A DNA stretch of 64,000 nt from positions 62,001 through 126,000 of the forward strand of contig CANMBE010000005.1 of assembly GCA_947495975.1 (NCBI GenBank), in the 5' to 3' direction. The position numbers were made by a program, and so were the translations under genes. This document shows positions 5,854-64,000 of the stretch, in pieces; position 1 is the stretch's first letter, and each line of letters opens with the position of its first letter. The notes beneath the pieces are model-generated. The model saw nothing but the letters and a program-made list of their open reading frames with translations, did no database searches and was not told the origin of the DNA. This DNA is from Ignavibacteria bacterium. GTDB lineage: Bacteria; Bacteroidota; Ignavibacteria; Kapaibacteriales; Kapaibacteriaceae.

Positions 5854-8800
5854 ATGCTGCGTATGAATGATCCTCAACGGCCCAAAAAAGTTAACATGAT
5901 CAACTTCATCTATGTGACAGCCCGAGTGCTGTGTGTGCTGAGCGTTGTAGGGATTGTGGCTTCAACTAGTTCATTTGCACGGTTACCGAAAGGAATCGCT
6001 GTGCAAGAGCAAACGTCAAAGGTGTTGTCGTTCACCTACGTGCCAAAGATTCTACGCTGGGATACTGTCAACACATTCAACTCAGCAACGATACGTCCAG
6101 TCATTGACGGCGCACAAATTCGCGCATCAAGCGATGGATCAATTGTACAATGGATCGTTACTGTTGATTGCATTGTACCAAGTCCGCTAGGCTTTCGTGT
6201 TGACCGAAGTGATTTTCGCACGCTCACGTTGGCTTCAAGTTTGCCTTTTACCGTTGAGCACCTTGCAGACCGCATGCGGGCGCAAATGCCCAGCCCCTTA
6301 TCACAAAGAGTAACGGTTACATATGATGGTATTGCAGGGGACCGGCACATCGCACGCATCTCAATCGTTGTGGCATCACGAGAAAATGGGCGTACAACAA
6401 TTACTCGGAGCGCAGACGTTCGTCTGACGTTTGCAGGTGGGATAGCATCGGCAGGCAGAGCACCGTCAGCGCTCGGTGTGATAAACCCTTTAGCCCCATG
6501 GCTTACAGCACCATCTGTCTATAGTAAAAAGAATGAAAGTGTTCAAAACACTGAGTCTTTTGAAAATATGTTTCGCATGTCGATTGACCGCGAAGGCATG
6601 TATCGATTAACAGCAGATCAACTCCGGAGTGCAGGAGTCCCAACTGATGCTGAGGCTGCTCGTACAATTCGTGTATTTGGTAGAGGGGGCTTGGAGTTAC
6701 CAGAAGAAGTTGACTCAGCGATGACGAGTATGTTGCGCGAGCAACCAATCACGGTGAGAACCAATGGCGATGGCAGTGTTCGTGATGTAATTTTTTATGC
6801 ATCCGCTACAACTGGTTGGAATCGTGACAAGTCTACAATCAGGCATTACATACACCATTATGCAAAAACGAGCACGTGCTATTTAACGTATGGCGGCATT
6901 GACGGTCTCCGAGCGTCGCCACGAGCTGCTTCTGCCGCAGAGGCAACAATACGGCCAACAATCGTTACAGGTCGGGTGTTTAATGAAGATGAAATAGCAA
7001 GCCCATATTCATCTGGAAGTGGACGCCGGTGGCTTGGACGAACGATTGAAAATGGTGGTTCGATTGTCATGAATACCATCTTACCTGGTTTAGTGCGAAC
7101 TGGAGCGGTTGAGTATCGCTATGTGGTTGCACATCGCGGTGGCGTAACAGGCGCCATGACTGTCACTGAAAATGGAACGTTTGTTGCGCAAACAAGCATT
7201 CGCGCAGTTCCTAAATATATGGACGCCTATACCACGTTTGGAAAGGGAGTGATAGATGCACAGACGCTGCCAGCAGATGCACGAAGTGTATTGCGCCTAT
7301 CATATTCGAGTACAGATAAGTCCACCTCAGGTATGCTTGATTGGTTTGAGATTCACTATCCACGTCAAATGCAAGCCAGCGAAAGTGAGTTTGAATTCTG
7401 GACAGTGAGTGGTGCAGGTGTTCACGAATATGCCGTTAATGGTTTCTCTGGTGATTTGTTCGGCGTGGACGTAACCGACCGAACAAGACCTCAGATGGTT
7501 GAGAACGTTTCTGCAATTGGCGGAATGTTTGTTATCCGCGAATCGATAGACTCGAGCATTGCACGCAGATATTTCCTGTCTTCCAACCTCAGGTCCACAA
7601 CACTTTCGCGCATAACGTTCCCGCACTTGCATGCACGCCCTCGTGCGGCAAGTCTTCTCGTGATTACAGACCCATCGCTTCAGCCGTCAGCGCAGCGCTA
7701 TGCTGATTATCGCATCAGCATGAACAAGATCAGCGCACGTGTTATTACAACAGATGAGATCTATTCGGAATTTTCATACGGAATGCAAGACCCAACTGCA
7801 ATTCGTGACTTTATAGCAATGGCGTATGCAGCGTGGACTCCACGCCCAACGGCCGTTTTGTTTTGGGGTGACGGCCATTTTGACTACAAAAACATTTCAA
7901 CGTCTGTTCCTAACTACGTGATTCCTTACGAGAGTCTCGATCCGGATGATCAAGACTATGGTCTCGTAACCTATACAACGGATGACTACTACGTGCGAGT
8001 TGCTGGCGAGGACAATCGTCCTGAGTTGGCAATTGGTAGAATGCCGATTACGAGCAATCAAATAGGCGATAGGATTACCTCAAAGATTCGCCTGTATGAA
8101 AATTCTGCTTCAACAGATGATTGGCGTACGCGAATCACACTCGTTGCAGATGATGGTCAACAAGGGGATGGTTTATCGGACGGCGATACACACCTCGATC
8201 AGAGTGAAATTCTGGCAAGAGAATACACTCCTGCAGAATTCCAGATTCGCAAGATCTATATGGTGGAATATCCAACTGAAAATGTGGCAAGGGGCAGGCG
8301 TAAGCCAACCGTAACGCAGGACATGGTATCTACTTTGAATACAAGTGGAAGCCTCATCCTGAATTGGATTGGACATGGAAACCCTCGTGTGTGGGCACAC
8401 GAAGGGATTTTCGCGAGAGAAACAACACCCAGTCTCCTTTCTAACGCAACCAAGCCATTTTTTCTCACGGCAGCAACATGTGATTTTGCTCGATGGGATA
8501 TGACGGAAACAATGTCTGGTGCGGAGGATTTATTATTGCTCGAAACCGGTGGTGCAATCGGAGTATTCTCTGCAGCACGTGTGGTTTTTTCATTGGCTAA
8601 TGCTGAGCTCAATCAAGAATTCTACTCTGACCTCTTTACCAGGGGTGTCTCTGGTGAATATCCTACGCTTGGTGAGGCTATGTATTCTGTGAAACAGAAA
8701 TACAATGGAAATAACGATGAGAAGTTTCATTTGCTCGGCGATCCTACCATGCGCATCCTGGTACCTGAGCAGACTGTTCGTTTTACGAAGATCAATGGTG

Positions 8801-9852
8801 TGGATGTAACGCAAGCCGGTCAGGCTGTAACGATAGCTGCACTAAGCACAGTTGTTGTTGAGGGAGATCTTACTCGCGCGCAGCAAACAGCAACGGATGT
8901 GTCTTTTGAAGGAAACGTAACGATTTCACTCCTTGATGCTAATCGTACGCTAACGGTTGTTGACACAGATATTTATAGGACAGTCAACACATTTACAAAG
9001 TCAGGCCCGGCACTTTGTCGCGGATCGTTTAAAGTGGAGAATGGTCGGTTCACAGGCACGTTCGTCGTACCAAAGGACATATCGTTCTCTTCACAAGCAG
9101 CAGGTCTTTATGGCTATGCAGCGAGTAATGATCAGCGCTATGCAATGGGTGTTACTGACCGCGTAGTTGTAGATGGCGTTACAAGCATCTCCGATCCAGA
9201 AACCAGCGGTCCGGAGATGAAGATTTTTCTCGATTCGCGCAACTTTGTTCCTGGCGGAATCACTCGTCCAAGTCCTATTCTCATTGTTGATCTTCACGAT
9301 GCCACGGGAATCAACACGACCGGTGTTGGTATTGGTCACGACATTGAAGCTACGTTTGACGAAGGACGCCTGATTGAGATACTCACACCATCTTTTACAA
9401 CATCACTCAGCAACAGTAGGGCGGGCAGCGCTCAGAAGCAGATTTTTGGTCTCGCTTCTGGACTTCATTCGGTTCGTGTGCAGGCTTGGGATGTGCTGAA
9501 TAATGTCAGTTCTGCATCTACAACGTTCCGCATCGTTGAATCGCCGGACGGAATAGCTGCGGAGAATCTTTCGAATTTTCCCAACCCATTCACCACGAGC
9601 ACTACAATACGATACACGCACGCAAGTCCTAGACCCTTTAATGCAACCTTGCTCATTTACGACGTACGCGGCGAATTGGTAGCAGAGAGCCCGATGCGTG
9701 TAACGGACATGCAAACGGCTGAAGTGGTGTGGAATGGACGAGACAATGCTGGATCACTCGTTGGCTCAGGGATGTACCAAGCCGTTGTTCGGTTAGTAGA
9801 TGAGTTGGGTTCCGTAAGCTTTGTGAGTGGGAAACTAAGCCTCGTTCACTAA
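5854..9852 (+). CDS. porU: Type IX secretion sortase PorU (peptidase family C25)
   Basis: This 1332-residue exported gingipain-family cysteine peptidase resembles PorU, which removes the C-terminal sorting domain of type IX cargo and attaches the cargo to lipopolysaccharide at the cell surface. A signal peptide covers about residues 15-43; the start could also be the ATG at 5896. A long beta-rich N-terminal half precedes the C25 domain. The catalytic dyad is visible as H841 in WIGHGNP and C876 in TAATCDFARWD. The C-terminus (from about 1240) is a FlgD-like Ig/sorting domain starting NFPNPFTTSTTIRY. porV follows 33 nt later, as in other type IX loci. The protein is somewhat longer than the Porphyromonas protein (roughly 1150 residues). 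Confidence 0.92.
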   Translation: MLRMNDPQRPKKVNMINFIYVTARVLCVLSVVGIVASTSSFARLPKGIAVQEQTSKVLSFTYVPKILRWDTVNTFNSATIRPVIDGAQIRASSDGSIVQWIVTVDCIVPSPLGFRVDRSDFRTLTLASSLPFTVEHLADRMRAQMPSPLSQRVTVTYDGIAGDRHIARISIVVASRENGRTTITRSADVRLTFAGGIASAGRAPSALGVINPLAPWLTAPSVYSKKNESVQNTESFENMFRMSIDREGMYRLTADQLRSAGVPTDAEAARTIRVFGRGGLELPEEVDSAMTSMLREQPITVRTNGDGSVRDVIFYASATTGWNRDKSTIRHYIHHYAKTSTCYLTYGGIDGLRASPRAASAAEATIRPTIVTGRVFNEDEIASPYSSGSGRRWLGRTIENGGSIVMNTILPGLVRTGAVEYRYVVAHRGGVTGAMTVTENGTFVAQTSIRAVPKYMDAYTTFGKGVIDAQTLPADARSVLRLSYSSTDKSTSGMLDWFEIHYPRQMQASESEFEFWTVSGAGVHEYAVNGFSGDLFGVDVTDRTRPQMVENVSAIGGMFVIRESIDSSIARRYFLSSNLRSTTLSRITFPHLHARPRAASLLVITDPSLQPSAQRYADYRISMNKISARVITTDEIYSEFSYGMQDPTAIRDFIAMAYAAWTPRPTAVLFWGDGHFDYKNISTSVPNYVIPYESLDPDDQDYGLVTYTTDDYYVRVAGEDNRPELAIGRMPITSNQIGDRITSKIRLYENSASTDDWRTRITLVADDGQQGDGLSDGDTHLDQSEILAREYTPAEFQIRKIYMVEYPTENVARGRRKPTVTQDMVSTLNTSGSLILNWIGHGNPRVWAHEGIFARETTPSLLSNATKPFFLTAATCDFARWDMTETMSGAEDLLLLETGGAIGVFSAARVVFSLANAELNQEFYSDLFTRGVSGEYPTLGEAMYSVKQKYNGNNDEKFHLLGDPTMRILVPEQTVRFTKINGVDVTQAGQAVTIAALSTVVVEGDLTRAQQTATDVSFEGNVTISLLDANRTLTVVDTDIYRTVNTFTKSGPALCRGSFKVENGRFTGTFVVPKDISFSSQAAGLYGYAASNDQRYAMGVTDRVVVDGVTSISDPETSGPEMKIFLDSRNFVPGGITRPSPILIVDLHDATGINTTGVGIGHDIEATFDEGRLIEILTPSFTTSLSNSRAGSAQKQIFGLASGLHSVRVQAWDVLNNVSSASTTFRIVESPDGIAAENLSNFPNPFTTSTTIRYTHASPRPFNATLLIYDVRGELVAESPMRVTDMQTAEVVWNGRDNAGSLVGSGMYQAVVRLVDELGSVSFVSGKLSLVH

Positions 9853-9885
9853 CTTTGCTTCTTCATTGCGAGACTAGGAGAGAAC

Positions 9886-10956
9886 ATGACGCTGATCCGC
9901 ACCTGCGGGATTCTTATGACCACTGTTGTTCTTGCTGCTACCGTATCCTACGGACAGGCAGGGGGAGCAGCAGTTCCGTTTTTGCTAATCAGTCCTGATG
10001 CCCGCGCCAGTGGGATGGGTGATGTTGGAACAGCGATGGCTGACGATATCAACGCCGTGTTCTGGAATCCGGGTGGGCTAGCGTTCAATCAAACGTCCAA
10101 TCAAGTAGCATTGAGCTATTCAAAGTGGCTTCCGCAGTTTAATGCTGACCTCTTTTACTCCTATGGGTCGTATGGTCAATACGTAGATGCCATCGGTGGT
10201 ACACTTGCCGGAACGTTTATTTTTATGAATCTCGGTGAGTTTACAAAGACCAACGAAAGTGGTCAAGCCCTTGGCAAGTTCCGCTCCAATGAGTTCAGTA
10301 TTGGACTTTCTTACGGTACTGAAATTTCACCTGATCTGGGTGCTGGCGTCCAAATCAAATACATCCAGTCAAACCTTGCTCCTGCCAGTGTAGGGCAATC
10401 TGGTGCTGGAACTGGTATATCGAGTGCCTTTGACCTTGGCTTCTTGTGGCGTCCATCAAAGCTCACCGTGTTTGGTGCGAATCTCGATAACACATTGCGG
10501 CTTGGTGTGAATCTTCAAAACGTGGGTCCAAAGATGACCTACGATAAAGAATCCGACCCACTGCCAACAAACCTTCGTCTTGGTATTGCCATAAAGCTTG
10601 TTGAAGACGAATTCAATGACCTCACAATTACCTCAGACTTCATGAAGCTTCTCGTGAAGCGCGACTCTCTTGGCTCTGATCCTATTCCGAAGTCGTTCAT
10701 TACGGCTTGGGGCGTAGGTGGCATTGAAACAGGCATCGGTATGGAGTATATCTATGACCGTATCGTTGCATTGCGTGGTGGCTACTTCACTGAGCCAGCC
10801 TCTGCTGGCGCACGCGAGTATTTTACCCTCGGTGCTGGTGTCCGCTATGATGTATTCAAGGTAGACTTCAGCTACATCCTCACGGTTGAGCAGAATCACC
10901 CTCTGGGTAACACTCTTCGCTTCTCATTGCTTGTTGATTGGGGAACGGAAGGCTAA
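9886..10956 (+). CDS. porV: Type IX secretion outer-membrane protein PorV (LptO)
   Basis: This 356-residue protein with an N-terminal signal peptide (about residues 1-25) is a FadL-like outer-membrane beta-barrel of the PorV family. PorV shuttles type IX cargo from the secretion pore to the PorU sortase. The family signature is the early stretch PFLLISPDARASGMGDVG followed by AVFWNPGGLAF; alternating hydrophobic strands and terminal aromatic residues follow. It is downstream of porU and probably co-transcribed. Its stop codon overlaps the stop of the convergent DedA gene by 4 nt, leaving no room for a separate terminator. Confidence 0.92.
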   Translation: MTLIRTCGILMTTVVLAATVSYGQAGGAAVPFLLISPDARASGMGDVGTAMADDINAVFWNPGGLAFNQTSNQVALSYSKWLPQFNADLFYSYGSYGQYVDAIGGTLAGTFIFMNLGEFTKTNESGQALGKFRSNEFSIGLSYGTEISPDLGAGVQIKYIQSNLAPASVGQSGAGTGISSAFDLGFLWRPSKLTVFGANLDNTLRLGVNLQNVGPKMTYDKESDPLPTNLRLGIAIKLVEDEFNDLTITSDFMKLLVKRDSLGSDPIPKSFITAWGVGGIETGIGMEYIYDRIVALRGGYFTEPASAGAREYFTLGAGVRYDVFKVDFSYILTVEQNHPLGNTLRFSLLVDWGTEG

Positions 10957-52765: not shown

Positions 52766-55149
52766 TAGGTCAGATCCTTATCCATGCGCTGTTTGGAGCG
52801 GCTGTGACTGCAACGCTGCTGTACGGCCTCGCACTGCGCCATCCGGGTAACACGTGGTACACGCGCGTTGCAAGAACGCTCTTTACATTACTTGCTCTTG
52901 GCCTTGTAGCGAGCGCTTCGATGCTTGTTGTGAACATCATTCAGCACAGGTTTGAATACACGTACGTGTGGAGTTATTCCTCGAGAGAACTCCCGCTGCA
53001 CTTGCTTGTGGCATGTTTCTATTCCGGACAAGAGGGAAGTTTCTTGTTGTGGACGATGCTTGTGGCACTCATTGGCGTGTTCTTAACACCGTATGCTCGG
53101 CGTCATAATTATGAAGAGCCCGTGATGATGTTCTATGGTCTCATATTGAGCTTCTTGACGCTGCTTCTCATTGTTAAAAATCCGTTCGCGTTTTATTACG
53201 AGACATTTGCCGCTGATGGAATTACCCTCGCTGATGTTCCTCTAAATGGTCGGGGACTAAATCCTCTTCTGCACAATGCCTGGATCACAATTCATCCGCC
53301 AATCCTCTTCACTGGTTTTGCTGCGATGTCTGTGAGTTTCGCATTTGCTATGGCAGGACTTGTTCGTCGTGACTATCATCGATGGATATCCATTGCTTTG
53401 CCTTGGACGCTTTTTGCAACAGCAGTGCTGGGCTTTGGAATCATGTTAGGGGGATTCTGGGCATACGAAACACTTGGTTGGGGCGGATTCTGGGGCTGGG
53501 ATCCTGTTGAGAATTCATCCCTCATTCCATGGCTTGTGACTGTTGCTCTTGTTCATGCAATGCTTGTGCAAAAACGCACGCATGGTCTTGTAAAGACCAA
53601 TATGATTCTTGCAGTTACAACGTTTGTAATGGTCCTGTACTCCACATTCTTAACACGTAGTGGAGTGCTCGGAGATACGTCTGTGCACTCGTTTGTTGAC
53701 CCTGGTAAATTTGCGTTTTGGATTTTGCTGCTCTTTATGCTGACGTTTACGAGCATTGGCGTAATAATGGTCCTTGTGCGCAGAAAAGACATGAACATCA
53801 ATCGTGAGGAATTCTCACCAAGTACACGTGAGTTCATGCTGTCCATTGGGTCAGCGCTTATTATGGCAAGTGCAATCTTTGTAACCATTGGAACTTCATG
53901 GCCAGTGATCATGGAAGTGATCGGCCAGCCCAAAGTAGCCGTTGCTACAGACTTCTATAATAAGATCCACCTTGTACTCGTTCCGGCAGTGCTCATTGTG
54001 AACGCTCTTGCTCTATTGATGCAATGGCGCAGCACACCAAAACATCTTTTGATGCGCCGCACACTTGAAGCGGCAATCGGTGCAGGTGTATTCACTGGAG
54101 TAATGGCTGTTTTTGGCGTGAGAGATATTGGTCCACTCATTCTGAGTTTTAGCGCATGGTTCTCGCTTATTGTTAACCTTCGTGTTGGGTGGAGCATGGT
54201 CACGAAGTCCGCCACGATGGCAGGCGCCTACGTGTCACACACGGGCATTGCCTTGCTCATCTTTGGCGTCATCACTACTTCGTCCTATACCGAATCTCAT
54301 CATGCTGTGCTTATTCATGGTGTTCCAACCAAGGTTGGAGAATACACTCTTACATATCTGGGCAAGGAACAAATTGAGAAACACTTTGTTGACCGAGAAA
54401 AACTACGGTACGATGTTCGGATTGAGAAGGATGGCGAGTCCAGAGTAGTTGCACCCGTGCTGTATTGGAGTGATTTCAACCAACGTCAATCTGCATTCCT
54501 TGAGCCAGGCATTCGCTGGGGCGTAATGAATGATCTCTACGTTTCGCCAAAGGCAACAGAAAATGAAGATCTCTTTTTGCGCACGAAGATTCAGAAGAGT
54601 GCTACGATAGCGTCGCCCCTTGACTCATCGATGTCTATCACGCTTGACCGATTTACGATGCCTATGGAAGAGGGAGCAGCTGCTGACGGACGTATGCAGA
54701 TGGCGGCTATGTTGACCATTCAACATGGCGGTGCATCGCACGAAGTAAAGGCGCTCACGCGCATTGGGACGGGGTCTGCAGGACCAACATTTGATCCAGA
54801 GTGGGTAACGATTCCTGGTACAACAACATCTGTTGGACTCTCGGAGATCGTACGCAACAATGAAGATCCATCAAAGTCGAGCGGTGAACTTGTCTTTAAG
54901 GATATCACCAAACCAATGCCTATTCCACGAGAAATATTTACAGTTGAATTTTCTGTAAAGCCATTTATCTCACTCGTGTGGATTGGTGTGATCACGATGG
55001 TTGCCGGATTTGGCTTCTCCATCGTGAGATACACGAGACTGCTCAAACAGCAGAGTCCGCTCGCTCAGGGTAAGCGACCGCCAAGCTCCGACGTGAAGCC
55101 CGAGATTCTCCAGGTGCAGCCCACCGATGCAAACTCGAATCAAACGTAG
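52762..55149 (+). CDS. ccmF: Heme lyase subunit CcmF
   Basis: A 795-residue protein with about 15 membrane helices. The WWD domain FWAYETLGWGGFWGWDPVEN is at about 232-251; the conserved histidines include HNAWITIHPP (171-180) and one in SVHSF (about 309). CcmF attaches heme from CcmE to apocytochromes. The C-terminal helix (about 735-757) and a proline-rich cytoplasmic tail are encoded in the part that overlaps rluE on the other strand (180 bp). CcmA, CcmB, CcmG and CcmH are not in this window. Confidence 0.93.
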   Translation: MIGQILIHALFGAAVTATLLYGLALRHPGNTWYTRVARTLFTLLALGLVASASMLVVNIIQHRFEYTYVWSYSSRELPLHLLVACFYSGQEGSFLLWTMLVALIGVFLTPYARRHNYEEPVMMFYGLILSFLTLLLIVKNPFAFYYETFAADGITLADVPLNGRGLNPLLHNAWITIHPPILFTGFAAMSVSFAFAMAGLVRRDYHRWISIALPWTLFATAVLGFGIMLGGFWAYETLGWGGFWGWDPVENSSLIPWLVTVALVHAMLVQKRTHGLVKTNMILAVTTFVMVLYSTFLTRSGVLGDTSVHSFVDPGKFAFWILLLFMLTFTSIGVIMVLVRRKDMNINREEFSPSTREFMLSIGSALIMASAIFVTIGTSWPVIMEVIGQPKVAVATDFYNKIHLVLVPAVLIVNALALLMQWRSTPKHLLMRRTLEAAIGAGVFTGVMAVFGVRDIGPLILSFSAWFSLIVNLRVGWSMVTKSATMAGAYVSHTGIALLIFGVITTSSYTESHHAVLIHGVPTKVGEYTLTYLGKEQIEKHFVDREKLRYDVRIEKDGESRVVAPVLYWSDFNQRQSAFLEPGIRWGVMNDLYVSPKATENEDLFLRTKIQKSATIASPLDSSMSITLDRFTMPMEEGAAADGRMQMAAMLTIQHGGASHEVKALTRIGTGSAGPTFDPEWVTIPGTTTSVGLSEIVRNNEDPSKSSGELVFKDITKPMPIPREIFTVEFSVKPFISLVWIGVITMVAGFGFSIVRYTRLLKQQSPLAQGKRPPSSDVKPEILQVQPTDANSNQT

Positions 55150-55611
55150 TGCAGGAAACCCTACTGAAGCGGTCATGCGCCGCACTTGTCTATTCTTTCC
55201 TTCTGTAAGGGTTATAGATATCCATGTTGTGGGAATGGATTTGCGCAGTCGAATTGGCGGTGTTCGCTCGGCAATTGCTGGCTGCGGATCTAAGAGCACT
55301 GCGGTACACGGTAGAGTAAAATGTCCCTTGATCATCACCCCTGATTGCAGGTTGTTCATGGCTTGTTGCGTTGGCGCTCCATCTACCTGCACCCAATACA
55401 TTCGTGCGTGACCCGCATCGGGATCTAACAAACTTGTTGGGAGCCCCTTTTCATTGCTAAGCAGCAATAGGCCCTCGCTATCGGCATCAAGTCTGCCAAC
55501 GGCATAGACGTCTGGTGGGAAGCCTTCTTGGGCTAGTGTTTGGTACTCGCTTCCAGGTTCAGGCGTGAACTGCGAAAGCATACCGTACGGTTTATTGAAA
55601 ACTATGATCAT
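54970..55611 (-). CDS. rluE: rRNA pseudouridine synthase, RluE/RsuA family
   Basis: A 213-residue pseudouridine synthase of the RluE/RluB/RsuA family. The catalytic aspartate lies in GRLDADSEGLLLLSNE; IVFNKPYGMLSQFT and LTEGKNRQVRRMTASVGFPALRLIRV are further signatures. There is no N-terminal S4 domain, as in RluE. The last 60 codons run antisense across the ccmF 3' end. The conserved fold ends around the AWRSLTL segment (about 55080), so the first part of the overlap codes for conserved residues of both proteins. The ATG at 55611 overlaps the upstream stop (ATGA). Confidence 0.9.
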   Translation of the reverse strand: MIIVFNKPYGMLSQFTPEPGSEYQTLAQEGFPPDVYAVGRLDADSEGLLLLSNEKGLPTSLLDPDAGHARMYWVQVDGAPTQQAMNNLQSGVMIKGHFTLPCTAVLLDPQPAIAERTPPIRLRKSIPTTWISITLTEGKNRQVRRMTASVGFPALRLIRVCIGGLHLENLGLHVGAWRSLTLSERTLLFEQSRVSHDGEAKSGNHRDHTNPHE

Positions 55612-57596
55612 TTGTGGAAATAAACTCCCCGTGGAAGCCCATCTAGCGTAGTGCCTACGCACTTGCCAAGGATGTCATAGTAGAGTCGTTGTCTTGCAGT
55701 ACGTGATTGTGAAGGGTCAAAGAGGCGCAGTTGTGGATCAAGGCAGACATCTAGCGTAATAACTTTTCCTTGAACGATCGTCGTCTTGATGTTTACCGTG
55801 TCAGAAGCACCAGTCTGCCATAAGATATTGCTGAGTGTTGACGTTGTTACTGTGTCATGGCCAAGTGCATGACGTCCAGGAACAACACATACAGTATCGC
55901 CAACATCAAGAGAGTCAAATGCAAAAGTAAAAGGGACTGCTCCTTGAAGCGTAGATGGATCAGCAATGAGAGCAACGTTTGGGATATAGGTAGTGAGGTC
56001 CATGTTTACTGTGCCCGATAAAACAGCAGCACCTGAAAGCCGTAGGTCAACAACATTGTTGATGCTGTCCACTATTGCAACGATCGTATCAACATCTCCT
56101 GCTCTACCAGCAACGTTAAGAACCTTAAGTGTTACCGATGGAATGTATAATCTTTCAAACGCCATGCCGCCGGTATATCCATAGGATTCAGCTGGACCAT
56201 AGCCGTAAATTATAATGCCGAATGTGCTATCGCATGTTAGTGCATGTGGGCCTGCTGAAACATCGAGGTGCACGTAGCCATGGGTAGTTCCTGCAATGGC
56301 TGTTAATGCAGGTGTAGGTGCACCATCGATGAGCAATGTTGATGCGCCCGCCAAAGGCAACACACAGGTGATTTGGTGCTGTGTGTAAAATGGAGTACCT
56401 GTAACGATGGGTTCAATGTTTACAACGCGATACGAAGACAAAAACTGTTCTATCGGAGGCATGACGATGAGGGAGGGATCGCCTGATTTATTGACGCCAC
56501 CGCTGCCCCTGTTGGCGGATCTGTCAATGATGGTTGCCAGGACAGGCTTCGAAGAGACGATATCACGTGCAATACCTAGCGCTAGATCTCGAAACTTGCC
56601 TGCATCTATTCTAAAGGGGGCTTGACCATTTACCTGAACAAGAGTGCTATCCTCAGCAGCCAATATCCTGCACACCGTTACATCGGTTGTGCCAGCAGAA
56701 AAGAAATCATTGGATCGGCGCAACGGAGGAACAATGATTCTCTTCCCCCACGTATCAATACTTGGAATTTGCTCAACTAAGCAGTCACGCGAAGCAATCT
56801 CGCTTAGTATTGGAACCTGAGCTCGAAGATGAGAAGAGATGAGACAGATTGGCTTCGTAGAGACAACTCTGCTCCCCGTAAGATCGTCGTTCTGTCTTGT
56901 TTCTGTTACCCGAGCCTGTAGGAGATATGATTGTCCTTGATTGAGCGTTACCGTTCTTCGAGAGCCGGAAGCAACTGCCGAAAGATTCTCGCTTAGATCA
57001 ATGGTTATGTCTGTGCCGTCTTCTGTAGCCACGAGAACAAATTGACTCGGATATGCCTCGCTAAACGAGGTTCTAATGACAGTTCCAAACAATCTGGTTG
57101 TATCAGCAACTGCCGTAGATGCATACGTGGAGACACGATACGACGTACCTAGTGCGTCAGTTGGTAGGACAAGCCAAGCGTCGCTCGTATTCACATCACG
57201 CATCACGGCGTACACAGATACATCTTCGGATGTGGTGATATGAATGCTCATTGGCATCACTCGTTCGCAATCATTGGTTGCACCATTGGGGCTGGTTACA
57301 CCAACGAGCTCGTATGGAGTAGCATTGTATCGAAACTCCCACACTACAGCTCCCGGAACGCGAACACTTCGTGAATCCAGTGTTCCATTGCGAGCGCGAG
57401 CGTCAATGCGGACGTCGGTAACACCATCGCAATTGATCATTAGAGATACAATCGCCGCCGAAGACCCACCGTTGTGATCATTTGGGGGGATGGCCAGCCA
57501 AAAATCTTTTCCTCTACTATCTCGCACTCCTTGACTGTGTGCGTCTACCAGAGACGCACATAGTAGCGCGACAATAAAAATCAGCCTTGTTGCCAT
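55608..57596 (-). CDS. Exported IgGFc-binding-like protein with C-terminal sorting-like segment
   Basis: A 662-residue protein with a signal peptide (about 1-20). The front half matches the IgGFc-binding protein N-terminal-like domain found in many secreted bacterial proteins: GKDFWLAIPPND, then MPMSIHITTSEDVSVYAVMRD and PSQFVLVATEDGTDITID. The C-terminus ends RQRLYYDILGKCVGTTLDGLPRGVYFHK, a short version of a type A sorting domain that stops right after GVYF. I chose the ATG at 57596 (the frame opens at 57617); it overlaps the upstream glycosyltransferase by 16 nt. Confidence 0.82.
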   Translation of the reverse strand: MATRLIFIVALLCASLVDAHSQGVRDSRGKDFWLAIPPNDHNGGSSAAIVSLMINCDGVTDVRIDARARNGTLDSRSVRVPGAVVWEFRYNATPYELVGVTSPNGATNDCERVMPMSIHITTSEDVSVYAVMRDVNTSDAWLVLPTDALGTSYRVSTYASTAVADTTRLFGTVIRTSFSEAYPSQFVLVATEDGTDITIDLSENLSAVASGSRRTVTLNQGQSYLLQARVTETRQNDDLTGSRVVSTKPICLISSHLRAQVPILSEIASRDCLVEQIPSIDTWGKRIIVPPLRRSNDFFSAGTTDVTVCRILAAEDSTLVQVNGQAPFRIDAGKFRDLALGIARDIVSSKPVLATIIDRSANRGSGGVNKSGDPSLIVMPPIEQFLSSYRVVNIEPIVTGTPFYTQHQITCVLPLAGASTLLIDGAPTPALTAIAGTTHGYVHLDVSAGPHALTCDSTFGIIIYGYGPAESYGYTGGMAFERLYIPSVTLKVLNVAGRAGDVDTIVAIVDSINNVVDLRLSGAAVLSGTVNMDLTTYIPNVALIADPSTLQGAVPFTFAFDSLDVGDTVCVVPGRHALGHDTVTTSTLSNILWQTGASDTVNIKTTIVQGKVITLDVCLDPQLRLFDPSQSRTARQRLYYDILGKCVGTTLDGLPRGVYFHK

Positions 57597-58699
57597 GTAG
57601 AGATTGTCTGTTCGCACAATTCAAGCATCTGCTCTGCACTTCTGTCCCACGTAAACGAAGAGGCCCAATGGACAGCCCCCTCACTTAACATATCTCGCAG
57701 ATTAGTATCCGTTAATATTCGAGTGATGCTGCCTGCAAGATGCTCAATGTTTCCGTATGGATACAGAAGCCCAGAAACACCATTACTTACCGAATCTCGC
57801 AGTCCAGGTACGTCTGCGCTCAGCACTGGTGTACCACAAGCGTTGGCCTCCATGTTGGTAATTCCCCAGCCCTCTTTAACCGATGGGTTTACCGCAACAT
57901 GTGCCTTGCTGAGGAGCTCTATTTTTTCTGGTCCGGATACCCAACCTCGGAAAGAAACCACATCTTTAAGTCCCATCTCTTGTACGAGTGCTTCTAAATG
58001 GGGCAGATCATCACCACGGCCGATAATCTGAAGCTGTGCCGTAGGTACGTCTTTGTGCACAAGCGTAAATGCCTTGATTACGTGGTCAACGGACTTGTAC
58101 CGTTTTAGTCGTCCAAAGTATACAGCCGTTGGTCGTTCAGCTTTTGCACCAACATGCATTGGAAATTCTGTTGGTTCAATTCCATTGTGAATCACATGTA
58201 AATGGGAGGGGGCTAATCCTAACTCGGTACACTCCTGCTTTGTGCTATCAGAGACAACAGAGATTGGAGTGTTTCGATAGACACGTGGTATGCGTCGCTC
58301 AAAGAACGACACGTATGTTCCAGCGATCAATCCAGCCTCTGAGAAAATACTTCCACCAAAAAGATGGTGGATGATTCCCAAGATTGGACGCTTGATAAAG
58401 AGCGGCGACATAAACGGAAGCTTATTGATATCGTCGATAACAATATCTGGTTTAAGCCCCTTACCCTCCGAATGCCACCACAACGGAACCGTATAGTTAA
58501 ATGTAGAACGACGTCCTCTTCGGATCACGTGGATTCCGTCGAGAACTTCAGATTCAGCAGCCCCTTCAAACCCGCAAGAAAGCAGACTTACTGAATGCCC
58601 CATGCGTGCAATTCGTCCAAAAATCTCATGCAGGTGCGTTTCTGCACCACCGGCTTCTGGATGCTTTCTGTCTTGCCAATTAAGAATGAGCAGACGCAT
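57581..58699 (-). CDS. Glycosyltransferase, GT4 family
   Basis: A 372-residue GT-B enzyme: N-terminal LILNWQDRKHPEAGGAE donor/acceptor start and C-terminal donor site YFGRLKRYKSVDHVIKAF, VNPSVKEGWGITNMEANACGTPVLS and GVSGLLYPYG. It fits mannosyl- or glucosyl-type GT4 enzymes. It is embedded in an operon of surface proteins; its start shares bases with the stop of the OmpA gene (TAATG at 58701-58697). It may glycosylate a surface glycan or protein of this operon. Confidence 0.9.
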   Translation of the reverse strand: MRLLILNWQDRKHPEAGGAETHLHEIFGRIARMGHSVSLLSCGFEGAAESEVLDGIHVIRRGRRSTFNYTVPLWWHSEGKGLKPDIVIDDINKLPFMSPLFIKRPILGIIHHLFGGSIFSEAGLIAGTYVSFFERRIPRVYRNTPISVVSDSTKQECTELGLAPSHLHVIHNGIEPTEFPMHVGAKAERPTAVYFGRLKRYKSVDHVIKAFTLVHKDVPTAQLQIIGRGDDLPHLEALVQEMGLKDVVSFRGWVSGPEKIELLSKAHVAVNPSVKEGWGITNMEANACGTPVLSADVPGLRDSVSNGVSGLLYPYGNIEHLAGSITRILTDTNLRDMLSEGAVHWASSFTWDRSAEQMLELCEQTISTWQQG

Positions 58700-60744
58700 T
58701 AGCGCAGAGGAGTCTCCACCATAACTTCTACAGTGCGAGAATAGAACCGACTCTCGGGAGTAGTGTTGTCATAGAGTGGAAGTCTTTCTCCAAGACCAAC
58801 GATTGTTGCATTGGTTACACCCAGCGCACTGGCTACAGCCTTTGCGCGTTGTTCGCTCAGCTTCTGGTTGTAGTCGTCTGCGCCAGATCTATCTGTATAG
58901 CCAACAATTTTGACTTGTGCATTCGTCTTGATTCGACTCTTTATGTTGCTAACGATAGCCTGACTTTCAGAAGAAAGCTCGGACTTATCAAAAGCAAAAA
59001 GTATCAGCGAATATCTGTCAACAGTTTTGTCTGTTCCGCCTGAGCGCTTCTTGTCTTCGAGTGTGATTTCACTCACAGGAATAGTCTTGTTCTCAGATGG
59101 TACGATGTTGCCAGTAGAATCTTGAACAACGAGCATGTATTCAATATTTCTCGTACCACGAGGAATGAATCCACTTTGTTCTGCAACGCGCCAATCAACA
59201 GATGCCGGGATTGGATCCGCATCATGGAATGTGCGGATGATACGCTCGTCTTCTGAAACAAACACTGTCCATGAAGAAATGGGTATCTGTGGATCGATTG
59301 ATGGCATAAATCTCATACCAGTAGGCTCAAACACACGCATAGTGTCGAGCGAGGTAACAGACGATATAATGCTTGGATCTGAGGACGAAATCTCTACACG
59401 CCGGTTCTCGGCCTGTCCGTCCGTTTCAGTTGATTTGGATGGAGCGGCTGGTAATCCTCTCATCTCGGTTGCGATGCGATCAGCGTTGATACCCCACGTG
59501 TTCACGAGATATGACTTTACTGTGATGGCACGTTGTTGCGAGAGATTTCCTGCACTCTTGTCTTCTGTGTCATCAGTGCAACCGGTAACCACGATTGATG
59601 CGTTTGGCGATTCGCTCATTCGCTTGCCGATAATGTTGAGCATTTGTCGGTATGTAACAAGAGCATCGAGGTTATAAAAGTTCTCAAGTGAATAATTATC
59701 TACCTGATCTTGCGATAGTTGATGATACCGCGTGGCAAGAGCTGCTGAGTTCTTATCAAAAAATACATATGGCAAAAGGGGTCGCACGCGAGTAGAAGCG
59801 AATTCTTCAATTCGCAGACCCTGCGATGAACTTGTGCGTCCATCTTCAGTGATCCCTGTTACCGTGATGTTAGAGACAAACGCAACACCAGGTGCATCCT
59901 TGGTAGGAAGTGGCGTGCGGCGTGCTACGTCATACAGCTGGTATTCATCAAGCGAGTCTTCAACGTCTGGTGGAACAAATGTGAGTGCAAGGCCAAATCG
60001 AATATGCTGCACCTTCCATGACACATCATTGACGAGATCAAACGGCGAAATAGTGAACAACAGTTCTGGGCTGAGGAACATTGTGCGATCAGTGTTCAAC
60101 GGCAGGTCATACGAGGCGCCAAGTGTTAATCCCAATGCAAGGGCATTGACGGCAGCGATGTCGCCACTGACAACATTGCGCGTACGACGTCCAGTTTCAA
60201 AGGTTCCATTGAGAGGCTGCACGAGTGTTTCACTCTGGTCATAGGTTGCGGCTACACGATATCCTGCCATGATGCCGGCACGTAGCGAGAGATCGTCTGA
60301 AAGTTTATAACCCACCATAGGCTCTACACTCATTTGTGTAAATGAACCCGTCAGTGCATAATTGATTTCAGCATTTGTCGTTGAGCCATCAGCAAGAACA
60401 ACTGGCAAAATTTGCGATTTCGTCATGTCAACTGAATACGAACCGTAGTGCATACGCATGTCTAGCAGCCACGTTGTGTTGATTGGTGTTATGTAGAGAA
60501 TTCCCGCAAAGAAGCCAAGGCCTGTGCCGCCAGTAAACTCTGGACAACAATTTGGTACGTCCGGAAGTTGCGAAAACGATGAGCCGTGCATTCCAAGAGA
60601 CACGTTACCGAATCCGCCAATTCGTGGCTTCTTCAATATGTCCGATGATTGGGCAACAGCTGAAGGAATTGAACAACACGTAAGAAGAAGGATTACAAAG
60701 CAGTTTTGTGCTAGGCGCTGGAGTTGATTCATTGTCTTATACAT
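58699..60744 (-). CDS. Outer-membrane protein with two tandem OmpA domains
   Basis: A 681-residue exported protein (signal peptide about 1-32). Residues 40-260 are beta-rich and probably form an outer-membrane barrel. Two OmpA C-terminal (peptidoglycan-binding) domains follow: 325-453 (FFDKNSAAL, TGCTDDTEDKSAGNLSQQRA, NRRVEI) and 575-681 (FAFDKSELSSES, GYTDRSGADDYNQKLSEQRA, SRTVEV), separated by a 120-residue spacer. One OmpA domain is the rule. The start shares bases with the upstream stop (TAATG). It would anchor the surface proteins of this operon to the cell wall. Confidence 0.88.
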   Translation of the reverse strand: MYKTMNQLQRLAQNCFVILLLTCCSIPSAVAQSSDILKKPRIGGFGNVSLGMHGSSFSQLPDVPNCCPEFTGGTGLGFFAGILYITPINTTWLLDMRMHYGSYSVDMTKSQILPVVLADGSTTNAEINYALTGSFTQMSVEPMVGYKLSDDLSLRAGIMAGYRVAATYDQSETLVQPLNGTFETGRRTRNVVSGDIAAVNALALGLTLGASYDLPLNTDRTMFLSPELLFTISPFDLVNDVSWKVQHIRFGLALTFVPPDVEDSLDEYQLYDVARRTPLPTKDAPGVAFVSNITVTGITEDGRTSSSQGLRIEEFASTRVRPLLPYVFFDKNSAALATRYHQLSQDQVDNYSLENFYNLDALVTYRQMLNIIGKRMSESPNASIVVTGCTDDTEDKSAGNLSQQRAITVKSYLVNTWGINADRIATEMRGLPAAPSKSTETDGQAENRRVEISSSDPSIISSVTSLDTMRVFEPTGMRFMPSIDPQIPISSWTVFVSEDERIIRTFHDADPIPASVDWRVAEQSGFIPRGTRNIEYMLVVQDSTGNIVPSENKTIPVSEITLEDKKRSGGTDKTVDRYSLILFAFDKSELSSESQAIVSNIKSRIKTNAQVKIVGYTDRSGADDYNQKLSEQRAKAVASALGVTNATIVGLGERLPLYDNTTPESRFYSRTVEVMVETPLR

Positions 60745-63700
60745 TAGCGCACCACCTCGAAACGTTCAACGATGCGTTGTGATGGAGTTGTCATTACCAA
60801 ATAATACGAGCCATTAGGAATTGTTGTTAGGTCGATAGGGATGTACCATGCGCCCCCTTGCATAACTCTATCAGCGATGATAGATACAACGCGACCAGTA
60901 AGATCAACAAGTTGCACCGTAGTGCGTCCTGCTTCAATAGTTGTGAGTGCAGCGGTCGTAGAACCAGAAGCTGGCAGGGGAGCCACTCTTATTCCTGCAC
61001 CAGCGGGCGCTAACTGAAAAAGTCGTGCTCCGCCTTCTCTACAGATGTCTGAGATAATCACGCCTCCATCAACTCGTTTGATCTCAAGTGTGTCTGCAAG
61101 TACTAATGAATCGATGTGGATGGCAGACAACGTGTCATTTCCCCACGACGTGTTGAAGTGTAACGTGGTTGCCAAGGAATCAGTTGTTGGGATTTGAATA
61201 GTGATCGGTATCAAGCGCATACCATCGGGGCGGAACGTTCCCATCGGTGTTCCCGATGTGGGCGTAAGAATTGTTCCATTAACGAGTAGCTGCATATCGA
61301 GCTGTGTAACGCTCGTGCGATCAAAATTCACTTTGTTGGAAATGTAGACTGGCACGGCAACTTCCTGGCCTGTTGTTGCGCTTACCGTACTAATTCGAAG
61401 CGTAGCACTAATGTTACTCTTCACAGTTGCGATCATGCGAAGTGGCTCTGTGGTCCTACAAACGGAATCAACAAAATTAAATGTGTTGTCATATGTAGTG
61501 CCAGCACTTCCTCCCAAAAAGCGAACAGTAAATTCTGATCGCGCACCTGGTTGCGTTACCTCAGGAAGAATGTTTTCTATGCTAAATCGACCAATCGTAA
61601 TTGGATTTCGAGGCCATCGCAAAGCAACGGTACCGGTATTGAGAATGAGCAAACGCTCAAGCGATTCTTGACCTTCTATGACATTTGAAAAATCCACGAC
61701 TGTGCGCGACAATTCGAATCCAACTGAATCTCTCCGAGCTGAAATAGGCACCACGCTTCTACCATTAACGGCATTAAGTGCGCTAGAGGCGAAAACAACT
61801 TTTGCATCCTTCGGTCCATTTGACGTTGGATTAAATGAGACAGTGAAGATAATAGACTCAGCAGGGTCAAGCTTTATCGGGAATGATGACGGTGGCGTGG
61901 CAGAAAACTCATTTGCATTGCGACCTTCAATGCCTGCGTAGTAGATCTGCATTTGCGTATTACCAATATTGCTAACCTGAACAGGTTGTGACCCGCCGAC
62001 ACTAACACATGGGTCAGTTGGGTACAACAATGCTATGGTGGTTGCGATTCGCCCGTCTCCCGTGCCTTCGCCATAGAGCCGCACACGGATTGGCGCCCCA
62101 CTTTGTAATTCGAGCACAAGCTCGGATGCAAACCGGCCAAAGTCTATCGGCTCAAATCGTACAACAATTGATCGAGACTGACCAGGAGTAAGAGTGAATG
62201 CTCCACCACCAGACTGGATTGAAAACTGATTTGCCTGAGGACCATTGAGTGAAACAGTATTAACATTCACTGGCTGTGTGGCACCTTGAGGCATTCGAAT
62301 ATTGATGACCGTATCTACAACAGCCTGATTGGAAACGCGACGTCCATAGTTGATGACAACCGGAGAGATAAGGCTAGGATTAACACCATTGCCCGTCACA
62401 CGCACGCGCACTATGCCTGTTCCCGTTACTACATCTATGTCTGCAGTTCGAGGGCCAAGTTGCGTTGGGACAAAAGAAACGTCGAATCGTAATGGTTCTG
62501 TAGAGGTAATTGTTGGTGGGAACGATGTTGTAAGCAGCCCAAAGTCATTAAGGTCTCCACTTACCATCGTAGCATTGAGAATACGGAGTGGTGCCAACCC
62601 TGTAGCCGATACAGCAGAAGCAATCTTATCCGTGCCAGAACCAAGAGCAACGTCTCCCATATCTATCGTTAGGGCAGAGGCTGCCGCTCCGATGATTTTA
62701 AAATCACCATCAGAATCATCTTGTACAGTTCCGATACCATCGAGTGTCCATATTCGCGCAGTAAAGTCTGTTGACGCAGAAGCAGCGCGCTTTCCATCAG
62801 GTGAAAAACGAGCGCCATAGACAAGTCCTTGATGGCCAGCTAATGAGGACTGCATTGCCATGTTGGATGCATCATAGATTTTTGCAGTACCATCGCCGCT
62901 TGCGGCCAGAATGGTGTTTGAGCTTGAAAATTGAAGCCCAAGTATTGCCCCAGAGACAGGCTGACTTGTTAAAAGTTGAGCACCGGAGCTTGCGTCAAAC
63001 AAACCAATAATAAAGTCCGTACCGCCGGCAGCAATTTTGGATTTGTCGCTACTCAATGCAGCTGCATAGATTTTTCCTTGTCTGCCTCCAGAGGAGCATG
63101 TTGTAATGATATCGAGAGTATTAACATCTCGCAGCGTAGCCTTCGTGCCTTCCGCTATTGCCATTACATCGCCACTTTGAGCAATATCTATATCATACAC
63201 TGGGCCTTCTTCCACGATCTTTGAGAAGATTGGTAGCCAGGTTGATGTTGAAATCACTGTGATACCTCGGGGCGTGCCCACAAGAAGCTGTTGACCATTT
63301 GGTGTGAATGCTACGCTAAATGCAGTGCCTTCCACTTGAATCGTTGCAATTCGTGCACCGGAGCTATAATCCCAAACTCGGACGGTTCCGTCAAAGCTTC
63401 CTGAAGCAACAAACTTTGTGTTTGGCATTACGTCAAGCGACCAGACCCAATTGGTATGTAGGCCAACAATCTTAATCTGATTTCCATTGAATGCATTCCA
63501 GAGTCGGACTGTGCCGTCATGCCCACCCGTTATAACATTTTGCCCATCTGCAGTAAAGATTGCTGAATACACCGGTTGATCTTGTCCCGACAAGACAATA
63601 ATATTATTTGGATCGATAACCGTACGAGAGATGCGAATGCGAGCTCTATCAGAAACTGTTGGTCCTGGTCTCCACTTGTACGATAAGCCATTTGCAGCTT

Positions 63701-64000
63701 CGGTAAGGGGCTTCCAGTCTACCCCGCTGTTTGTGCTGAGCTCTAATCGAACCACTTCCTGCGGGAGGATATTCGTCCATTGAATCACTGTATCAGTTCC
63801 GGCAACAAAGGTCTCTCCGCCATTTGGCTCTAACAGATGAATCAAGTCACCACGGAAAGGAGAACCCCCTCGCAATGTGATTTGAGGGAGATTGCATGTT
63901 GCAGATGTAAATGTCAATAATCCAATTCGCCCGTTGATAGAGCTAGGGGCATATTGAATTGTGAGATTGACTGATTGTTCTTTTCGAATCGTTAAGGGCA
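60744..64000 (-). CDS. WD40 / ASH-repeat surface protein with sorting domain, 5' end outside the window
   Basis: At least 1084 residues, open to the window edge without a stop; the true start lies beyond 64000 (a TTG at 63917 is not the start). In order: Ig/ASH-like strands, then a Fn3-like segment with PNGGETFVAGTDTVIQW, seven WD40 repeats forming a beta-propeller (GHDGTVRLWN, GSFDGTVRVWD and five more), several ASH/choice-of-anchor domains with repeated FVPTQLGPRTADIDV-type strands, and a C-terminal type IX-like sorting domain ending NGSYYLVMTTPSQRIVERFEVVR. It is probably secreted by the type IX system. The stop overlaps the OmpA start. Confidence 0.85.
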   Translation of the reverse strand, partial: PLTIRKEQSVNLTIQYAPSSINGRIGLLTFTSATCNLPQITLRGGSPFRGDLIHLLEPNGGETFVAGTDTVIQWTNILPQEVVRLELSTNSGVDWKPLTEAANGLSYKWRPGPTVSDRARIRISRTVIDPNNIIVLSGQDQPVYSAIFTADGQNVITGGHDGTVRLWNAFNGNQIKIVGLHTNWVWSLDVMPNTKFVASGSFDGTVRVWDYSSGARIATIQVEGTAFSVAFTPNGQQLLVGTPRGITVISTSTWLPIFSKIVEEGPVYDIDIAQSGDVMAIAEGTKATLRDVNTLDIITTCSSGGRQGKIYAAALSSDKSKIAAGGTDFIIGLFDASSGAQLLTSQPVSGAILGLQFSSSNTILAASGDGTAKIYDASNMAMQSSLAGHQGLVYGARFSPDGKRAASASTDFTARIWTLDGIGTVQDDSDGDFKIIGAAASALTIDMGDVALGSGTDKIASAVSATGLAPLRILNATMVSGDLNDFGLLTTSFPPTITSTEPLRFDVSFVPTQLGPRTADIDVVTGTGIVRVRVTGNGVNPSLISPVVINYGRRVSNQAVVDTVINIRMPQGATQPVNVNTVSLNGPQANQFSIQSGGGAFTLTPGQSRSIVVRFEPIDFGRFASELVLELQSGAPIRVRLYGEGTGDGRIATTIALLYPTDPCVSVGGSQPVQVSNIGNTQMQIYYAGIEGRNANEFSATPPSSFPIKLDPAESIIFTVSFNPTSNGPKDAKVVFASSALNAVNGRSVVPISARRDSVGFELSRTVVDFSNVIEGQESLERLLILNTGTVALRWPRNPITIGRFSIENILPEVTQPGARSEFTVRFLGGSAGTTYDNTFNFVDSVCRTTEPLRMIATVKSNISATLRISTVSATTGQEVAVPVYISNKVNFDRTSVTQLDMQLLVNGTILTPTSGTPMGTFRPDGMRLIPITIQIPTTDSLATTLHFNTSWGNDTLSAIHIDSLVLADTLEIKRVDGGVIISDICREGGARLFQLAPAGAGIRVAPLPASGSTTAALTTIEAGRTTVQLVDLTGRVVSIIADRVMQGGAWYIPIDLTTIPNGSYYLVMTTPSQRIVERFEVVR

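Follow-up and report, generated by a model that had tools for sequence, protein, structure and literature searches.

Do the five overlapping genes at one end of a 64,000-nucleotide (nt) stretch of an Ignavibacteria bacterium genome (family Kapaibacteriaceae; contig CANMBE010000005.1, positions 62,001 to 126,000, or G000:C5:62001-126000 in our numbering; hereafter the window) encode one dedicated surface complex, or does a smaller unit lie within the run? In order of reading, the genes encode a WD40-repeat protein, a protein with two OmpA domains, a GT4 glycosyltransferase, an IgGFc-binding-domain protein and a pseudouridine synthase, and an initial annotation proposed that all five belong together at the cell surface. 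Our analysis favours a core of two genes, a cognate module formed by a type IX secretion system (T9SS) cargo and its own wall-tethered barrel anchor, a reading to which we assign a probability of about 0.64. The two proteins would interact physically, and the anchor would display the cargo and fasten it at the surface, possibly by a disulfide between a cysteine of the cargo's linker and a cysteine in a loop of the barrel.

The gene run lies on the minus strand of the window. The closest named relatives are Candidatus Kapaibacterium and Ignavibacteria metagenome-assembled genomes, in line with the Kapabacteria suggested at first. Open reading frames (ORFs) were called throughout by a simple script; wrong starts among such calls may shorten upstream cargos. 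An ORF check reproduced exactly the overlapping architecture first described, with TAATG junctions at 60744 and 58699, an overlap of 16 nt between the glycosyltransferase and IgGFc genes (57596/57581, provided the latter starts at the ATG at 57596), and ATGA at 55611/55608. The domain labels of all five products were also borne out by Pfam and NCBIfam. The WD40 gene extends beyond the window end; upstream of it, across a gap of 114 nt and thus a little outside the window, lies a second barrel-OmpA gene (OmpA_B, 663 amino acids). Promoter and terminator scans of the run yielded no more sites than shuffled sequences; a promoter could lie within the 114-nt gap 5' of the WD40 gene. The features of the cargo, with the evidence for each in brackets, are as follows:

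60744..64000, minus strand, with the 5' part reaching window-equivalent position 65063: cargo gene, 1439 amino acids, encoding von Willebrand A, Ig, WD40, ASH repeats, cohesin and a type A C-terminal domain (CTD) (ORF and domain searches)
62733..63599, minus strand: WD40 beta-propeller, residues about 489-777 (Pfam PF00400/PF25174)
61053..61412, minus strand: cohesin-fold domain, residues 1218-1337 (AlphaFold2 [AF2] model, fold match, PF00963)
61020..61049, minus strand: cysteine motif DICREGGARL with Cys1341 (codon 61041-61043), within the flexible linker that leads to the CTD (paired/unpaired counts, alignment)
60753..60995, minus strand: type A T9SS sorting domain, residues 1357-1437 (TIGR04183, fold match to the PorU CTD)

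The cargo matches WD40 (PF00400, 3e-35) and choice-of-anchor D/ASH repeats in Pfam and NCBIfam, and at full length comprises a signal peptide, a von Willebrand A domain, an Ig/Kre9-like segment, the propeller, ASH repeats and the C-terminal sorting domain. An AF2 model of its last 240 residues (pLDDT 90.8) shows a cohesin fold, a flexible linker and a seven-stranded CTD. The cohesin domain superposes on the CipA cohesin 1aoh (VIA Z 12.7, root-mean-square deviation [rmsd] 2.3 over 114), and PF00963 was found in 5 of 41 homologues; the CTD superposes on that of PorU (6za2; VIA Z 11.3, rmsd 1.9 over 83). TIGR04183, a model of type A sorting domains, scored 23.7 bits against a cut-off of 23 in the genome scan and slightly under the cut-off, at 20.6-22.1 bits, in protein scans. 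The linker carries the consensus [DG][LI]CxxGGxRL (here DICREGGARL), whose cysteine is invariant in an alignment of 16 proteins (15 from the family, one from a different family) and is the last of five invariant cysteines of the WD40 cargo, an odd number. Since the motif lies upstream of the CTD, an attachment made there would outlast CTD removal.

Machinery to export such a cargo is encoded in the genome, which contains SprA (917 bits), PorU (799 bits) and PorV (278 bits; three PorV-family genes). The PorU sortase (1332 amino acids) and PorV (356 amino acids) are encoded in the window itself, at 5854-10956 on the plus strand, about 45 kb from the gene run.

The second gene overlaps the end of the first, and its product has the following parts:

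58699..60744, minus strand: anchor gene, 681 amino acids, encoding a signal peptide, an 8-stranded outer-membrane barrel, OmpA domain 1, a middle domain and OmpA domain 2 (domain search, AF2)
59977..60624, minus strand: 8-stranded outer-membrane barrel, residues 41-256 (AF2, VIA)
60544..60549, minus strand: vicinal Cys66-Cys67, in barrel loop 1, on the extracellular side (homologue alignment, AF2)
59383..59661, minus strand: OmpA domain 1, degenerate (homologue alignment)
58717..59004, minus strand: OmpA domain 2, with both peptidoglycan-binding residues (Pfam, homologue alignment)

Pfam finds both OmpA domains (PF00691, 4e-27), and an AF2 model (pLDDT 91.4) places eight barrel strands in residues 41-256, followed by OmpA 1, a middle beta domain and OmpA 2. 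The barrel, which the initial annotation did not mention, resembles those of NspA, OmpA, OmpW and OprF (VIA Z 15-17), and the 8-stranded N-terminal barrel together with a C-terminal OmpA domain bearing the binding Asp and Arg makes the protein one of OmpA/OprF type. The idea of a double cell-wall anchor holds for the number of OmpA domains but not for their binding residues: domain 2 keeps D618 and R633 in 60/60 homologues, whereas domain 1 keeps Arg405 but has the Asp in only 15/60. Cys66 is present in 60/60 homologues and Cys67 in 53/60, in the loop between the strands modelled at residues 41-57 and 70-87; the only other conserved cysteine column is 389 (36/60). In an even-stranded barrel the N- and C-terminal ends lie on the same side, and as the OmpA domains must face the periplasm, the loop joining strands 1 and 2 would be extracellular.

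The arrangement of cargo followed by anchor is not confined to this locus. This genome has about 15 genes for proteins with this barrel. Immediately before nine of these, and on the same strand, lies a gene for a large exported CTD protein, mostly overlapping the barrel gene or <=15 nt from it. In a first survey of the order, for which loci were chosen by barrel match, 113 barrel genes had an upstream gene in view, and 57 of them formed such a pair; many overlap by 1-4 nt, and the paired cargos vary in type (WD40, Kelch, SBBP propeller, IgGFc/PKD, ASH-only). Genomes encode about 10-20 barrel-OmpA paralogues, roughly half of them beside a putative cargo. When four whole genomes were searched with profiles of the cargo C-terminus and the anchor, a barrel gene followed 31/69 cohesin/Cys-region hits versus 1/79 CTD-only hits, although some of the cargos had been in the training set of the cargo C-terminus profile. 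Distances among cargo C-termini also track those among barrels (Mantel r=0.83; with partners swapped within genomes, r 0.53 +/- 0.08, the observed value being reached in 1/5000 trials); this and the cysteine statistics below treat related loci as independent. Cargo and barrel are thus passed on and diverge together as one unit; contact between the partners would fit this but is not proved by it.

At their C-terminal end the paired cargos have a cohesin domain, a cysteine motif (DICREGGxRL) and a CTD. These CTDs fit type A models; the type B model TIGR04131 matches 0/41 of them. CTDs of a type C exist as well (PMC10202324); the comparison here was with types A and B. A TP[TSN] ending is enriched in paired cargos (26/57 versus 4/95 unpaired) but not universal. 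As a clean new class recognisable by sequence alone, these CTDs found only partial support; in cross-validation, a hidden Markov model of them reached an area under the curve of 0.87-0.89 across the order and only 0.67-0.74 with this genome as the test set.

Two side observations concern the reach of the barrel family. At L081 (G030:C69), a tandem array of WD40/vWA cargos with three near-identical C-termini ends in one barrel-OmpA gene, and several cargos may share that anchor. In distant Bacteroidota relatives (L297, L298, L300 and L302), a barrel-OmpA gene without the vicinal cysteines follows a different surface-type protein, ice-binding-like (PF11999) at L297 and similar by eye at the other three; the anchor family may serve other adhesins too.

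The cysteines of cargo and barrel are distributed together. The linker motif occurs in 49/57 paired versus 9/95 unpaired CTD proteins (29/37 versus 9/95 without the WD40 orthologues), a comparison that is partly circular because the paired set had served to define the motif, and several of the nine motif-bearing unpaired proteins are encoded near a barrel gene of the same cluster. Among the first 57 pairs, three barrels have no loop cysteine at all, and their partner cargos carry W, W or F at the motif position; one further cargo lacks the motif cysteine while its barrel keeps both. The motif position of L115 was judged by eye, another cysteine lying nearby. A further 38 pairs, counted by eye, gave 30 with both cysteines, two lacking that of the cargo, one lacking that of the barrel and five lacking both. 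For all 95 pairs the corresponding figures are 83, 3, 1 and 8 (Fisher p=1e-8, the pairs not being independent). By homology groups, the pairs lacking both reduce to five and those lacking the cargo cysteine to one, and if only 10-25 independent groups with both present are taken, p ranges from 0.005 to 0.0002. The combination of loop CC and linker motif also extends to neighbouring families of the class (L289, L290). Where the barrel lacks loop cysteines, W or F mostly replaces the motif cysteine, and tryptophan stands at that position in several cargos (DVW in L345, DAW in L351, NVW in L362 and L049, DIW in L115), a hint that it serves as an alternative, non-covalent docking residue.

These observations can also be read more conventionally. 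The cargos might be ordinary PorV-dependent type A substrates and the barrel-OmpA proteins general envelope stabilisers, with adjacency reflecting duplication of a dicistron and co-regulation, and with the cysteines paired intramolecularly (a vicinal loop disulfide in the barrel, a structural disulfide in the cohesin domain). The match to type A rather than type B models fits this explanation, as do the presence of PorV and PorU, the many unpaired members of both families and the second cysteine found in the cohesin region of some cargos. Yet it accounts poorly for the concentration of the linker-cysteine class in barrel-adjacent cargos in the four genomes; intramolecular roles do not predict that cargo and loop cysteines should be lost together across two proteins; and many cargos have a single cysteine near the CTD. 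We consider this explanation unlikely.

Under the two-gene reading, the cargo would be exported by Sec and folded, and then translocated by the T9SS through its type A CTD. The outer face of the cognate barrel would capture the cohesin-linker-CTD region, while the periplasmic OmpA domains held peptidoglycan and so fastened the cargo to the wall. PorV might hand the cargo over, or the barrel might collect it directly. Perhaps a disulfide would then form between the loop CC and the linker cysteine by thiol exchange, as has been proposed for SprF-GldK (PMC12635249). One protein would in this way do the work of a PorP/SprF-like receptor and a PorE-like wall tether. The AF2 models, with the cargo cysteine in a flexible linker and the CC in extracellular loop 1, count in favour of this reading, as does the odd number of invariant cysteines in the WD40 cargo. 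We offer only tentatively, as the less probable extension of our proposal, a general scheme of covalent display, in which the cohesin-Cys-CTD tails of Kapaibacterales/Ignavibacteria T9SS cargos would be disulfide-linked to the vicinal-Cys loop of a cognate peptidoglycan-tethered 8-stranded barrel, replacing the linkage by PorU to A-type lipopolysaccharide (A-LPS) or the PorP/PorE complex, with many orthogonal pairs in each cell.

Several observations weigh against the two-gene reading and its disulfide. First, the genome has PorV, which could handle these type A CTDs. Second, roughly half of the cohesin-Cys-CTD cargos and a similar share of the barrels have no adjacent partner. Third, co-divergence may be mere duplication of the pairs as a unit. 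Fourth, beyond the circularity of the motif count, the correspondence of cysteines has exceptions: the cargo group of L048, L347 and L361 lacks the cysteine though the barrel keeps its CC, and L350 shows the reverse. Finally, the known T9SS receptors are 14-stranded, and we know of no 8-stranded barrel that binds a CTD.

Among known systems, the parallel first drawn was with PorE, in which, as here, a beta-propeller and an OmpA domain are associated with the T9SS. It was a good lead, but PorE is a single periplasmic lipoprotein, whereas here the propeller sits in the exported cargo; the PorE model (NF052230), which describes TPR, beta-propeller, CRD and OmpA in one protein, is matched by the anchor in the OmpA part only, at 47.6 bits against a cut-off of 600. 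The closest functional parallel is rather PorP/SprF plus PorE with a type B cargo. Precedents are PG1035-PorP-PorE and the Flavobacterium johnsoniae operons that encode a type B cargo, an SprF-like shuttle and a PorE homologue (PMC9143113, PMC12618676). In these systems (PG1035-PorP-PorE, SprB-SprF, Fjoh_3952-3951-3950), as in ours, the cargo gene is followed by that of a cognate outer-membrane barrel, a genome encodes several specific pairs plus orphans, the cargos are adhesin-like and there is a peptidoglycan tether (PMC9143113, PMC12618676). Here, however, the cargo has, instead of a type B CTD, a type A-like one preceded by a cohesin domain and the Cys linker; the barrel has 8 strands and is not of the 14-stranded FadL type; and barrel and wall-binding OmpA domain form one polypeptide. 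PorP/SprF and PorV are both described as 14-stranded (PMC9143113). By this comparison, the cargo-barrel module is the same idea realised in different parts and not a member of that system; membership in PorP/SprF was rejected on both CTD type and barrel family. TIGR03519 is absent from the NCBIfam hits shown for the window's OmpA protein, and neither it nor TIGR04131 matched in the genome, a scan in which no positive control rang, so that absence is not proven.

Conserved twin cysteines in a T9SS-linked outer-membrane barrel are also known from SprF/PorG-GldK, where a disulfide has been proposed as the attachment (Liu et al., 2025, PMC12635249). There a CxC in the periplasmic tail binds GldK; the anchor has no conserved cysteine in a periplasmic C-terminal tail, its vicinal pair sits in an extracellular loop and is proposed to bond with the cargo. 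The same difference bears on the idea that the barrel-OmpA protein is itself a structural component of the secretion machinery, a PorE/PorG-like tether expressed with the cargos. Its 8-stranded barrel does recall PorG (PMC12635249), and its OmpA domain, with the weak match above, PorE. But 10-20 paralogues per genome, diverging with neighbouring cargos, and cysteines in an outer loop instead of a periplasmic tail make a machine component very improbable. A looser likeness is found in AtaA-TpgA (also an NCBIfam model name), a trimeric autotransporter adhesin with an adjacent peptidoglycan-binding OmpA-type protein. In outline, a surface adhesin is again wall-anchored by an OmpA-family protein of the same operon; AtaA, however, is an autotransporter with its own barrel, and TpgA has none.

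The two-gene module leaves three genes of the run to be accounted for:

57581..58699, minus strand: GT4 glycosyltransferase (PF00534)
55608..57596, minus strand: IgGFc-binding-domain protein with a cysteine motif (Cys618, CLDPQLRLFDP, 55713-55745) and a remnant CTD (PF17517)
54970..55611, minus strand: RluE-like 23S rRNA pseudouridine synthase, overlapping the convergent ccmF (TIGR00093)

Conserved gene order in relatives, which the initial annotation had set as its test, is found within the family and lost outside it. In relatives with contigs spanning the place, the order is nth-OmpA_B-WD40-OmpA_A-GT4-[IgGFc]-[pseudouridine synthase], facing ccmF; WD40-OmpA_A adjacency is kept in 18/18 and OmpA_A-GT4 in 20/20, with WD40 proteins down to 35% identity despite the kept order. 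Two members lack the IgGFc gene (G013, G018) and seven the pseudouridine synthase. Since the flanking nth and ccmF are syntenic as well, conserved order alone is weak proof of a functional unit. Past the window end (L040:15234-16500), endonuclease III (nth) and GT2 genes lie upstream of the second barrel-OmpA gene and are syntenic in much of the family. The five-gene block breaks up in the order's other families; a WD40-OmpA pair is still seen outside the family in G030.

The glycosyltransferase (PF00534, 5e-38) is single-copy in 59/80 genomes of the order and about 47-56% identical outside the family, where its neighbours are unrelated in nearly all of 20 genomes; the exceptions place it beside IgGFc and OmpA genes in G033 (L115) and after an OmpA gene in G036 (L114). 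These two cases, and the order kept throughout the family, are what speaks for a dedicated five-gene surface complex in which the glycosyltransferase glycosylates both cargos or helps attach them. Set against its scattered neighbourhoods, the dispensable synthase and IgGFc genes and the equal synteny of nth and ccmF, that proposal appears highly unlikely. The glycosyltransferase and the pseudouridine synthase are outside the module. What survives of the surface complex is the widely recurring unit of WD40 cargo and OmpA anchor, without the other three genes.

The IgGFc protein (PF17517, 2.5e-54) was first taken for a second type IX cargo. Unlike the WD40 protein it has no NCBIfam match to a sorting domain, and in this genus only about 35 residues of its CTD remain, with GVYF or similar at the end; a longer version survives in other genera. 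It may be a second client of the anchor. In several members (L057, L058, L067, L070, L071, L075, L076; window 55608-55745) the gene meets the synthase start at ATGA, and its sorting domain looks as if truncated by gain of the downstream gene. The RluE-like synthase (TIGR00093, 8e-43) is a dispensable passenger, and its ORF overlaps the convergent ccmF tail to tail by 180 nt (window 54970-55149; about 60-120 nt in relatives).

In the literature on Kapabacteria with T9SS or OmpA we found nothing on a cargo-barrel module. Surface retention of T9SS cargos without an LPS attachment has so far been studied in few Bacteroidota, and the present lineage is little studied. The proposed module has a residue-level prediction built in, that the linker cysteine goes with the loop cysteines and is lost with them, and makes both cargo-receptor specificity and covalent anchoring testable. 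The architecture of the pair would also provide a rule for spotting surface adhesins and their anchors in uncultured genomes.

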